A stretch of 64,000 nucleotides of DNA, taken from positions 1 to 64,000 of the forward strand of contig NZ_JHXF01000017.1 of assembly GCF_000621845.1 (NCBI RefSeq), written 5' to 3'. The notes beneath the pieces are model-generated. The model was given only the letters and a program-made list of their open reading frames with translations. It did no database searches and was not told the DNA's origin. Shown here piece after piece: positions 1 to 2,979 of the stretch (position 1 is the first letter of the stretch; each line of letters opens with the position of its first letter). Source of the stretch: Ruminococcus flavefaciens MA2007 (GTDB lineage: Bacteria; Bacillota; Clostridia; Oscillospirales; Ruminococcaceae). The position numbers and the translations under genes were made by a program.

Positions 1-98
<98 letters not shown>

Positions 99-1261: not shown

Positions 1262-1304
1262 AAAAAAATCTCCTTAACTTGAATTTTGTCGTCGTTAAGG
1301 AGAT
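1262..1304 (-). promoter_or_regulatory. Attenuator hairpin (terminator that also contains the SD) of the MFS gene
   Basis: On the minus strand an 11-bp perfect stem ATCTCCTTAAC / GTTAAGGAGAT is followed by seven T residues, and the MFS start codon comes immediately after. The 3' arm contains the only SD (AAGGAG). If it forms, the hairpin can both terminate transcription and hide the ribosome-binding site. It lies about 50 nt after the stop codon of a leader ORF, so translation of that ORF could control its folding. Confidence 0.75.
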
Positions 1305-1352
1305 AATGCGCGATATATCGTTACTTTTACAGATTCAGGAGGTCTTTTGACT

Positions 1353-1445
1353 TTACCCGACTAAAGCTGAAAAAGGGCGCACTATCCCCGCAGTCGGGAA
1401 AACATCGCCTTTTCCAAGTTGTATGTTTACGTTTTTATAACACAT
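1353..1445 (-). CDS. 30-residue leader peptide upstream of the MFS gene
   Basis: A short ORF starts with ATG at 1445, about 8 nt after an AGAGG SD, roughly 37 nt downstream of the inferred transcription start, and ends with TAA at 1353. It begins MCYKNVNIQLGKG and ends RPFSALVG. Inside it lies a hairpin, CCCGACT (1392-1398) pairing with AGTCGGG (1356-1362); the 3' arm ends at the stop codon, so a ribosome on the ORF would melt it. Codons 9-11 contain AACTTG, complementary to CAAGTT at the loop/3' arm of the attenuator. Leader ORFs that sense ribosome stalling are known for erm, tet and ABC-F genes. This one matches no leader I know. Confidence 0.6.
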   Translation of the reverse strand: MCYKNVNIQLGKGDVFPTAGIVRPFSALVG

Positions 1446-1488
1446 ACTATCAGCCTCTTACCTGTAAAATGATTTGTACTTACGTGAT

Positions 1489-1517
1489 ATTATAACAGAT
1501 AAACGCGCCCTTGTCAA
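1489..1517 (-). promoter_or_regulatory. Sigma-A promoter of the MFS leader
   Basis: Minus strand TTGACA (1512-1517), 17-bp spacer, TATAAT (1489-1494): both boxes match consensus exactly. It predicts a leader of about 220 nt before the MFS start codon. The promoter begins right after the dpaB stop codon, with no terminator seen between them. Confidence 0.85.
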
Positions 1518-1523
1518 GTATTT

Positions 1524-2123
1524 TCACTTTCTGTATTCGTGATAGATTATGGGGCGGAGCTGTACTCCGTTCATAGCGGCTTCTATTGCCTGGGGGAGCA
1601 TTGAGAATTCCGCCACAAGGGACGCAGGCTTGTTTATCCAGTCGTCCTGCACCATGGGGACAAAGTAGTAATTCTTGCGGTTGAATAGCTCCCCGAGGTT
1701 CTTTGCCGAGCCCATAAGGGAATCGTTTGAAGCAATTGCAAGAACTACAGGCTTTCCGCGGCGCAGATGAGACTTCACAGCCATTGTAACGGCAGTATCG
1801 GTTATTGATGCGGCAAGCTTTGCGGCGGTATTCGAGGTGCAGGGAGCCACTACCATAATATCCGTCAGCTCCTTTGGACCTATGGGCTCTGCGGCAGAAA
1901 CTGTTGTTATTACGTCTTTACCTGTGATACTGCGGAGCTTTTCAAGGTTTTCTTCTGCTGTTCCGAAACGTGTTGACGTTGAAGCGGCGTGTTCTGACAT
2001 TATGGGGAGAAGCTCCGCGCCGTATTCGATGAGTATCTCCGCCTGCTCGAAGCTCCGCTGAAAGGTGCAGAACGAGCCCGTCATGGCATAGCCTATGCGA
2101 AGCCCTTTGAGGATATCACTCAC
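1524..2123 (-). CDS. dpaB: Dipicolinate synthase subunit B (flavoprotein family)
   Basis: A 199-residue protein of the SpoVFB/DpaB flavoprotein family, which with DpaA converts a dihydrodipicolinate-derived intermediate to dipicolinic acid in the mother cell during sporulation. The N-terminus MSDILKGLRIGYAMTGSFCT and the internal VVAPCTSNTAAKLA and AIASNDSLMGSAKN stretches are typical of this family. I place the start at the GTG at 2123, 8 nt after AAAGGGG, which gives the usual family N-terminus. An in-frame GTG at 2132 is possible but has almost no spacing to the SD. It overlaps the end of dpaA by 8 nt, so the two are translationally coupled. Confidence 0.92.
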   Translation of the reverse strand: MSDILKGLRIGYAMTGSFCTFQRSFEQAEILIEYGAELLPIMSEHAASTSTRFGTAEENLEKLRSITGKDVITTVSAAEPIGPKELTDIMVVAPCTSNTAAKLAASITDTAVTMAVKSHLRRGKPVVLAIASNDSLMGSAKNLGELFNRKNYYFVPMVQDDWINKPASLVAEFSMLPQAIEAAMNGVQLRPIIYHEYRK

Positions 2124-2979
2124 TGTCCTCACCCCTTTCAGCTATCATTGCGCTAACGGTGTCTGCGATTATCTCTCCCGATGTTACGGGAGCTGTTTTT
2201 CCTGGCAGTCCCAGCGCCCAGATCGCTCTTATTCCAAGCTCTGAGGCGGCGGTAAGGTCAATACCCCCGGGCTTCGAGGCGAGGTCTATGAACAGCGCAG
2301 AGGGCTCAAAACGGCTGAGGAGCTCCCTGTCGAATATGAGCTTTGGTGCGGTATTGAAAATAAGCCCGTAGTCTCCTCTGAGCCGCTTTGTGGGTACGGA
2401 GCTTATACCGTGGAGCCGTGCCTTTGCAGCTCCCCGTGGATTATGGACAGCGGCTGTTATGTCAGCTCCGAAGCCTTTCAGTATCTCCGCAAGGGCGCAG
2501 CCTATCCTGCCCATGCCCACTATCAGGACCTTCAGTCCGTTTAGGGTAACGGGGAGCTCCTCAAGGGCAAGCTGTACAGCTCCCTCGGCAGTGGGGACAG
2601 CGTTGCGCAGATTGAGCTCCTCACGGTTGAGGTAGTCGCATATCTCGCGGTGGGGCAGCATACGGCGCAGTCTGTCGTCTGCTCTGCCTGCGTAAATAAT
2701 ACCGTCGCCACTGAGAAAACCGTCGATAGTATCGGCTGTGAGCTCCGACGAATAGCAGGGCGTGTAGATGTAGCCGTCCTGCCCGAGAGAGGGCACGGGC
2801 AGCAACGCATAATCGAAGCTGCCGCGGTCTGAGCTGTCCGCAACTGGCAGTTTAGCTGCCAAGTCAGAGTATTCCTTGTCGAAGCCAATGAGCTTTATAT
2901 CGAAGTCGCGTGAGAGACGGTCAGCACAGTAGAGCTGGCGCGTGTCTCCGCCTGCAATAAGTATTTTAGGTCTTGTCAT
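2116..2979 (-). CDS. dpaA: Dipicolinate synthase subunit A
   Basis: A 287-residue NAD(P)-binding protein of the SpoVFA/DpaA family. The N-terminal domain begins MTRPKILIAGGDTRQLYCA; the central Rossmann motif LNGLKVLIVGMGRIGCALAE lies in the middle, followed by the C-terminal LPGKTAPVTSGEII region found in DpaA. The ATG at 2979 follows GGAG by 7 nt; an upstream TTG in frame overlaps the SD and is unlikely. In many Bacilli these genes sit beside asd, dapG and dapA; here they form an isolated pair. A sporulation-type promoter-like sequence lies upstream (3031-3055). Confidence 0.93.
   Translation of the reverse strand: MTRPKILIAGGDTRQLYCADRLSRDFDIKLIGFDKEYSDLAAKLPVADSSDRGSFDYALLPVPSLGQDGYIYTPCYSSELTADTIDGFLSGDGIIYAGRADDRLRRMLPHREICDYLNREELNLRNAVPTAEGAVQLALEELPVTLNGLKVLIVGMGRIGCALAEILKGFGADITAAVHNPRGAAKARLHGISSVPTKRLRGDYGLIFNTAPKLIFDRELLSRFEPSALFIDLASKPGGIDLTAASELGIRAIWALGLPGKTAPVTSGEIIADTVSAMIAERGEDSE

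Follow-up and report, generated by a model that had tools for sequence, protein, structure and literature searches.

A conserved leader peptide and a predicted ribosome-mediated attenuator upstream of a putative MFS efflux pump gene in Ruminococcus flavefaciens and related Clostridia

In Ruminococcus flavefaciens MA2007, a gene for a putative MFS efflux pump is preceded by a short leader ORF and by RNA segments that can pair in mutually exclusive ways. We conclude that this leader is probably a ribosome-mediated attenuator, mainly transcriptional, that would induce the pump when a ribosome arrests early in the conserved leader ORF, most likely through a ribosome-targeting antibiotic acting together with the nascent peptide. 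The DNA analysed is a stretch of 64,000 nt (hereafter, the window), and a preliminary description of it had proposed that a leader-ORF attenuator controls the MFS gene; that general reading is supported here. Comparison of related leaders reveals constraint on codons 2-13 of the ORF, a predicted antiterminator and terminator that exclude each other and carry compensatory changes, and a link to one family of pumps. We infer that a drug would be the inducer, that arrest would depend on the nascent peptide, and that the pump would export that same drug.

Results

Layout of the leader and its gene

The leader and the MFS gene lie on the minus strand (Table 1). The sigma-A type promoter, already called perfect in the preliminary description, was confirmed and is common among relatives: a score of at least 10/12 was reached in 50 of 73 upstream regions (the window and 72 relatives) versus 57 of 1460 mononucleotide shuffles. 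The 30-codon ORF with its own Shine-Dalgarno sequence is present as described, and so is the terminator whose run of seven T abuts the MFS start codon and whose stem includes the Shine-Dalgarno sequence of the MFS gene. The terminator stem comprises 11 bp around a loop of 15 nt, with the first T of the U run inside the stem; a simple terminator scan passed over it because the loop is longer than the limit of that scan (8). In the window, the leader start codon and the pump start codon are 184 nt apart.

Table 1. Features of the leader region and the MFS gene, in the order of transcription.
Feature	Position in the window	Strand	Basis
Sigma-A type promoter, TTGACA-17-TATAAT	1489-1517	minus	12/12 match, TG ahead of second hexamer
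Possible lineage-specific closing helix around the leader, 5' arm UUUUACAGGU and 3' arm AUCUGUAAAA	1460-1469 and 1325-1334	minus	folding
Shine-Dalgarno sequence of leader ORF, AAGAGG	1454-1459	minus	sequence
Leader ORF, 30 codons, MCYKNVNIQLGKGDVFPTAGIVRPFSALVG	1353-1445	minus	ORF listing and leader alignment
Codons 1-13 of leader ORF (coding constraint on 2-13)	1407-1445	minus	synonymous excess, frame 0 only
P1 stem, 5' arm AAAAGG, within codons 11-13	1408-1413	minus	pairing count on leaders
Inner P1 hairpin, 5' arm UCCC and 3' arm	1396-1399 and 1386-1389	minus	pairing count on leaders
Region 2, antiterminator 5' arm, GGGGAUAGUGCGC	1377-1389	minus	pairing count on leaders
P1 stem, 3' arm CCUUUU	1371-1376	minus	pairing count on leaders
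Region 3, antiterminator 3' arm, overlapping terminator 5' arm, GCGCAUUAUCUCC	1299-1311	minus	pairing count
Terminator 5' arm, AUCUCCUUAAC	1294-1304	minus	pairing count on leaders
Terminator 3' arm, GUUAAGGAGAU, including MFS Shine-Dalgarno AGGAG	1268-1278	minus	pairing count
Terminator U run, seven T, abutting MFS ATG at 1261	1262-1268	minus	sequence
MFS transporter gene, 362 aa	173-1261	minus	Pfam MFS_1 73.6 bits (cut-off 33.4); MFS fold

A further helix may close around the whole leader. Among nine leaders compared, a helix of 8-10 bp lies near the same place in the window, L018, L019, and L021; L023 has a different 8-bp helix, and the best helix of the remaining four lies elsewhere. A closing helix in part of the R. 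flavefaciens clade is therefore suggestive only.

The product of the MFS gene was modelled with a pLDDT of 85.6 from an alignment (A6) of 30 out of 37 MFS proteins, from which L042 was dropped for an in-frame stop and six others were left out as well; a single-sequence AlphaFold model (pLDDT 41.6) was discarded. In a structure search, the fold matched NorA, MdfA, LmrP, and non-drug MFS proteins alike, and so gives no hint of the substrate. The protein scored below every NCBIfam cut-off among the 12 families listed, and reached 23.8 bits of 750 for TetA(P) and 22.7 of 640 for Tet(V), two tetracycline efflux families.

As to the surroundings, the gene for dipicolinate synthase subunit B (1524-2132, minus strand; above the cut-off of one NCBIfam model) lies directly upstream of the promoter, and that for subunit A (DpaA_N above the Pfam cut-off) occupies 2116-2991 on the same strand; together, they are sporulation-type genes in an R. 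flavefaciens-like genome. A partial 5S rRNA gene at 1-95 (plus strand) runs off the start of the window, and a terminator-like stem (143-168) separates it from the convergent end of the MFS gene.

Coding constraint in the leader ORF

We compared the leaders in an alignment (A1) of 58 of the 73 aligned leaders, retained by a 90% identity filter; L080 and L039 were removed before this filter, and L073, with a low-scoring ORF, was never aligned. Another alignment (A5) combined 32 of the 58 A1 leaders with 12 distant ones. The family consensus of codons 1-13 reads M-x-W-K-x-x-N-[VLI]-Q-L-x-K-G, and the window has Y at position 3 (MCYK...). Only some members of the family encode lysine at codon 11 as well as at codon 12; the window does so at one of the two.

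Over codons 2-13 of the 58 leaders, single-base codon differences comprised 3491 synonymous and 2851 other changes, that is, 55% synonymous where 22% was expected, and the other two frames gave 9% and 22%. Over codons 14-24, the fraction was 32% versus 26% expected. The excess persisted in 18 leaders of less than 70% identity (59% over codons 2-13), and none of 200 column permutations reached that value (mean 22%, maximum 40%); for codons 14-24 of these leaders, the in-frame fraction was 29%, compared with 28-30% for the two alternative frames. This frame-specific excess over codons 2-13 implies that translation of the leader matters, and the leader ORF appears to be a translated leader of the kind that characterizes ribosome-mediated transcription attenuators.

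Downstream of codon 13, indels shift the frame among clades while the RNA is still conserved. The R. flavefaciens clade, including the window, ends in ...GIVRPFSAL, many other leaders in ...GDSAPFF, and others stop after 18 or 21 codons. Conservation of the ORF in relatives, on which the preliminary description had made its reading depend, was thus borne out for the first 13 codons but not beyond, where frame-changing indels are common. A functional small protein encoded by the leader ORF would account for the conserved N-terminal block, but would not be expected to vary so freely in its frame after codon 13 or in its length, which ranges from 18 to 40 aa in 73 leaders; we consider this explanation extremely improbable.

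Two exclusive pairings and a less certain stem

The best supported pairing in the leader is the antiterminator GGGGAUAGUGCGC/GCGCAUUAUCUCC. Across the 58 leaders, 96.7% of the cells of its 13 pairs are paired, and both sides have changed at 6 of the 13 pairs (12 cells), an outcome that none of 500 shuffles reached on any of five measures. Versions of the helix slid along the alignment were 36-71% paired with 0-3 both-side cells. The inner GC pairs have changed on both sides in L027, L028, L045, and L078; these are individual sequences and do not stand for counted events. Mismatches concentrate at pair 76-189 (10 of 58 leaders) and pair 79-186 (8 of 58). We also considered 24 more distant leaders, and the best helix found by our script was the antiterminator in 17 of them, in some cases with other letters (L124-L126 and L128): AAGGGGAAGUGCGC/GCGCUCUUCUCCUU in L124 and L125, and GGGUCAGUGCG/CGCUCUGGCUC in L126. 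In the other seven (L123, L127, L174, L179, L180, L182, and L183), the best helix lay elsewhere.

Conservation of the terminator stem in relatives, a check proposed in the preliminary description, was also found: 96.5% of its cells are paired in the 58 leaders, with both-side changes at three pairs (eight cells), a result reached by 0-5 of 500 shuffles depending on the measure, and slid versions were 36-57% paired. Antiterminator and terminator share the bases at 1299-1304 and are mutually exclusive. Between leader ORF and gene there would thus be an intrinsic terminator with an exclusive antiterminator, as judged from these pairing patterns.

The preliminary description had placed the switch in other pairings, and had not named GGGGAUAGUGCGC/GCGCAUUAUCUCC. 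All of those pairings can form in the window, but they are not the conserved ones. AACTTG/CAAGTT is fully paired in only 6 of the 58 leaders (70% of cells), and CTCCT/AGGAG in 2 of 58 (43%); a 7-bp hairpin ending at the ORF stop codon, CCCGACU/AGUCGGG, is complete in 1 of 58 (34%). Both CTCCT/AGGAG and the stop-codon hairpin lie partly in a poorly aligning region of A1.

A third element, P1, consists of a stem between codons 11-13 and CCUUUU and of an inner hairpin between UCCC and GGGG; it is 96.4% paired in the 58 leaders. Between 17 and 27 of 500 shuffles matched the covariation of its inner part, and a slide by +1 still left 94.1% paired, making the register ambiguous. Extended to codons 5-13, P1 is 78.5% paired. 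Its 50 both-side cells were equalled in none of 500 shuffles, but 6 of 500 attained its count of changed pairs; this extension is less firmly supported, since slid versions also show many both-side cells (30-44, at 36-62% paired). P1 is the weakest part of the switch model. P1 forms an inverted repeat, and this accounts both for weak matches of a leader model on the opposite strand in six leaders and for the resemblance of the L028 antisense to a leader.

We asked how these features would sit with a ligand-binding riboswitch that contains an ORF incidentally. Such an element could be expected to have a complex fold, and the leader RNA folds at -61.1 kcal/mol versus -45.3 (sd 4.4) for 200 dinucleotide shuffles, one of which was equally good (z -3.6); the leader alignment also holds a conserved RNA motif, GGGGAUAGUGCGCC. 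A riboswitch would not, however, produce a synonymous excess confined to one frame, and GGGGAUAGUGCGC is already explained as an antiterminator arm. Moreover, the only Rfam match at gathering score in the 64,000-nt window was the 5S rRNA, and the one loose match in the leader (E 9) lies far below gathering score and is taken as chance. A riboswitch is, in our judgement, highly improbable.

Position of the ribosome and the proposed switch

To describe the switch, we divide the RNA into four segments: codons 5-13 (segment 1), GGGGAUAGUGCGC with the CCUUUU that follows it (segment 2), GCGCAUUAUCUCC (segment 3), and GUUAAGGAGAU (segment 4). In the OFF state, a ribosome beyond about codon 17 would cover segment 2, or, with no ribosome on the leader, segments 1 and 2 would compete by pairing with each other; segments 3 and 4 would then pair, RNA polymerase would be stopped, and the Shine-Dalgarno sequence of the pump would be hidden. 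In the ON state, a ribosome arrested near codons 8-14 (best at 12-14) would cover segment 1 and leave segment 2 to pair with segment 3, blocking the terminator, so that the pump would be transcribed with its Shine-Dalgarno sequence free.

Each of the 58 leaders was folded as far as segment 3, with 31 nt around the P site masked to represent the ribosome. The mean antiterminator probability was 0.41 without a ribosome, and rose to 0.74 with the P site at codon 1, 0.78 at codon 3, 0.86 at codon 6, and 0.87-0.91 at codons 8-11. The antiterminator was favoured most at codons 12-14 (mean 0.93-0.95), and at codon 13 all 58 leaders exceeded 0.5. The mean then fell to 0.73 at codon 15, 0.45 at codon 16, 0.20 at codon 17, and 0.00 at codons 18, 20, and 22. 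The antiterminator is thus freed best by a ribosome near the very codon, 13, at which the coding constraint ends. It is this folding that suggests that read-through would depend on where the ribosome stands.

In the full-length RNA, the equilibrium shift was only partial: the family mean went from 0.89 for the terminator and 0.05 for the antiterminator without a ribosome to 0.50 and 0.65, respectively, with a ribosome at codon 13. The full-length leader of the window favoured the terminator at codon 13 (0.97 vs 0.04 for the antiterminator) and at codon 14 gave 0.78 and 0.56. Since the terminator of the window is still favoured at codon 13, the ON state would have to be set during transcription, when the antiterminator forms first.

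The antiterminator is favoured, too, when the ribosome sits at codon 1, 3, or 6, and folding therefore does not demand a peptide-specific arrest. A general sensor of translation stress, opened by any slowing of ribosomes (by several drug classes or by arrest at the start codon) with no drug-specific nascent peptide, would fit the means of 0.74-0.95 for all codons tested between 1 and 14. It would also have a precedent in E. coli, where, according to PMC12121999, the toiL uORF responds to at least five drug classes and tetracycline stalls ribosomes at start codons, including that of toiL. Such a stall would need no conserved peptide. Yet codons 2-13 keep their amino acids while synonymous changes pile up, and a stress sensor would have no need of the conserved N7, Q9, L10, and G13. 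We regard it as unlikely. Because arrest at the start codon is compatible with folding too, drug specificity in our preferred reading, arrest by a ribosome-targeting drug together with the nascent peptide, is drawn from the conservation of the peptide and not from folding.

Attenuation by an amino-acid shortage, for example of charged tRNA-Trp or of the tRNA for another residue of the block, is suggested by W3, which is encoded by the one Trp codon of 56 of the 58 leaders, and by the favourable position of a ribosome at codon 3. But a single Trp codon is not a run of regulatory codons, the block of the window has no Trp codon at all, conservation reaches as far as codon 13, and the MFS transporter bears no sign of a biosynthetic or amino-acid role. 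A shortage is less likely than a ribosome-targeting drug because of this single Trp codon and its absence from the window, and we rate it as very unlikely. A ribosome-targeting drug is the most likely inducer.

Distribution of the leader among relatives

The MFS protein was used to query the species collection, which yielded 75 loci, 55-98% identical, mostly from Ruminococcus, Oscillospiraceae, and Lachnospiraceae and many from rumen or gut; the closest named relative was from R. flavefaciens YL228 (98% identical). The 87 nt at the 5' end of the leader were made into a covariance model (R1, trained on the window and 57 of the 75 loci), with which the leader was found upstream of the MFS gene in 72 of the 75, a figure that describes presence and is no independent test since most loci trained the model. 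The three misses were L063, whose contig begins 3 nt before the gene, L073, which has diverged, and L091, where only MFS residues 298-362 matched.

The class was represented by 391 genomes; aside from that of the window, 13 of these contain an MFS protein that is 41-59% identical over nearly its full length, and the leader adjoins the gene in 11 of the 13, eight at E <1e-4 and three weakly (E 0.016-0.15) though clear by eye. Of the other two, G460 has kept only the 3' part of the leader. In G442 (L122/L139), leader and terminator are intact but ~1.7 kb away from the MFS gene, and this interval contains an IS91-like transposase gene (Y2_Tnp 136.8 bits) on the opposite strand. A fourteenth genome, G317, holds a partial MFS match (45%, residues 216-360) with one internal stop. 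No leader was found at E <0.5 in any of 16 loci with MFS proteins of at most 33% identity, nor in L006-L008.

Scanning the same class genomes with R1 gave a match in 11 of 391: the window's own, eight before an adjacent MFS gene, G442, and L129. The last was considered as a leader before another gene and taken as a chance match. With a model that includes distant members (R3), the leader was found in 23 of 397 genomes of one family, which partly overlap the 75 loci (e.g. L165 and L070); in 20 it precedes an intact MFS gene (34-61% identity), and in L184 an MFS frame of 121 codons followed by a stop. In L179 and L185, the leader is retained before MFS remnants of 15 and 35 codons. In a sample of 398 genomes from the phylum, the leader turned up in that of the window alone.

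Under strict filters, no leader was found before another gene in the 391 class, 397 family, and 398 phylum genomes, with the reservation that the strict-filter class scan missed at least three weak leaders (G182, G155, and G461) that were later found through their MFS genes. No other convincing copy was found in the window's genome (next best match E 0.56). Viral contigs gave no match to the exact pattern GGGGATAGTGCGCCNTTTT, and plasmids gave no protein match and two 29-nt matches (E 0.05) that we attribute to chance. Across the genomes searched, all convincing leaders precede this pump family or its remains.

Three leaders, L182, L183, and L184, differ at the 3' end. By eye, their U run is missing and GCAUUAUCU or GCAUUAUUCUU lies opposite AGGAUAAUGC just before the gene, with a counter-pairing GCCCAUUUUUAGAA/UUCUGAAAAUGGGC in L182 and L183. 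This hairpin would hide the Shine-Dalgarno sequence, and these leaders appear to have shifted from attenuation of transcription to attenuation of translation.

Separately, a loose pattern picked out a different conserved leader peptide in 6 of 19 loci with distant MFS relatives (L143, L144, L149, L150, L151, and L153), ~220-280 nt upstream of an MFS match that is 27-31% identical. In five of the six, the peptide is close to ...EYLAYAHAITGDFGAQGRSVSKIxYYVN and is followed by a terminator-like CCCCUAAGUAAGG...CUUAGGGGUUUUUU. On this loose pattern, these leaders may be a second, unrelated type of attenuator in the wider transporter family.

Discussion

Our analysis adds a conserved, apparently undescribed family of leader peptide and attenuator to the gut and rumen Clostridia, and this family points to a family of inducible pumps. 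Attenuators of this kind could help to identify the compounds against which a transporter protects. The kind of system is known, and this member appears to be new: the leader peptide family was found in none of Rfam (leader of the window searched), Pfam (62 natural leaders), and NCBIfam (five natural leaders), and we found no publication on this leader in the literature searched. A search of literature text for the peptide motifs YGDSAPF, NVQLKKG, NLQLKKG, VQLKEGSV, and GDFGAQGRSVSK gave no match either, but has little power since VQLKEGSV, from the known tet(L) leader, was among the motifs that went unmatched.

In attenuators of the trp-operon type, segments pair as the alternatives 1:2, 2:3, and 3:4, with segment 1 inside the leader ORF. 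The leader described here follows the same four-segment logic, but has no run of regulatory codons and controls a transporter gene.

For tet(L), which likewise has a leader ORF before an MFS pump gene, we used its leader sequence, carrying N-x-VQLK-x-GS. This sequence scored 57.3 bits against PF08050 and matched 39 plasmid records at 99% identity or more. Its core N-x-VQLK-x-G-S resembles the N-[VLI]-Q-L-x-K-G-[SY] of our family. When columns 7-14 of the profile built from our leaders were scored, only 4 of 19,470 ORF starts did as well as the tet(L) leader, and these four are leaders or the antisense of one (L028); when three alternative column ranges were used, 7, 13, and 22 ORF starts attained its score, and not all of these are leaders. 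Inspection by eye revealed no U-run terminator ahead of tet(L), unlike in our family. We also considered membership of PF08050 (Tet_res_leader) and rejected it: none of 62 natural leaders matched at E <=10 (cut-off 27 bits), and a match of a composite consensus only (14.0 bits, E 0.046) was not counted. The link to tetracycline through tet(L) is kept as a lead only, because the tet(K) leader is without the N-x-VQLK-x-GS core, the shared stretch spans ~8 residues, and other column ranges are reached by 7-22 ORF starts. Tetracycline as the inducer would accordingly be a lead, suggested by peptide likeness.

One speculative extension, which we hold to be doubtful as a whole, is that the 13-residue block is a drug-dependent arrest peptide whose core, N-x-V-Q-L-K-x-G, is common to the tet(L) leader, such that two otherwise different MFS-pump attenuators would read the same nascent-chain signal, possibly for tetracycline. 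Translation would then be relevant only as far as the arrest site near codon 13, the later bases would act purely as RNA with a free frame, and the L182-L184 clade would apparently have swapped its transcription terminator for a hairpin that hides the Shine-Dalgarno sequence and is without a U run.

The tet(M), tet(O), tet(S), and tet(W) genes resemble our locus in having a leader ORF upstream of a tetracycline-resistance gene. A leader of the tet(M) type was nevertheless ruled out, as the leaders fetched for these four genes carry another sequence, judged by eye. We noted that a mini-ORF, ATGCGGCAAGGTATTCTTAAATAA (MRQGILK), is common to tet(W) (L092), a ribosomal-protection gene (L093), tet(M) (L112), tet(O) (L113), and tet(S) (L114), and is not found at an E. 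coli tet(M) locus (L115).

Further relatives in logic are toiL-topAI and bmrB-bmrCD, where a uORF responds to inhibitors of the ribosome by switching on the gene that follows it. Both have another gene and architecture: toiL acts through Rho, as stated in PMC12121999, and the bmrB terminator is reported to lie inside the coding region. In msrDL-msrD, as described in PMC10314930, the peptide MYLIFM stalls the ribosome at the stop codon in a drug-dependent manner, and the stalled ribosome covers the terminator of an ABC-F gene; our model shares with it that leader-peptide stalling would block an intrinsic terminator.

Of the described systems that we found, the one nearest to ours is the attenuator of mef(E)/mel (Mega) in Streptococcus, which PMC5418344 groups with ermK, tetM, vmlR, and others. 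PMC4335068 describes it as a ribosome-dependent transcription attenuator on mobile elements, with the leader peptide MTASMRLR in a 327-nt leader that is required for induction by macrolides. None of 62 leader peptides of our family carries the MRLR motif of the mef, msr, and erm(K) type. By comparison with that 8-residue MRLR peptide and 327-nt leader, the peptides described here have 18-40 residues and a different, 13-residue block, only 184 nt separate the two start codons in the window, and the terminator also holds the Shine-Dalgarno sequence of the pump gene; an MFS efflux gene, a leader ORF, a terminator, and an anti-attenuator are what the two systems would have in common.
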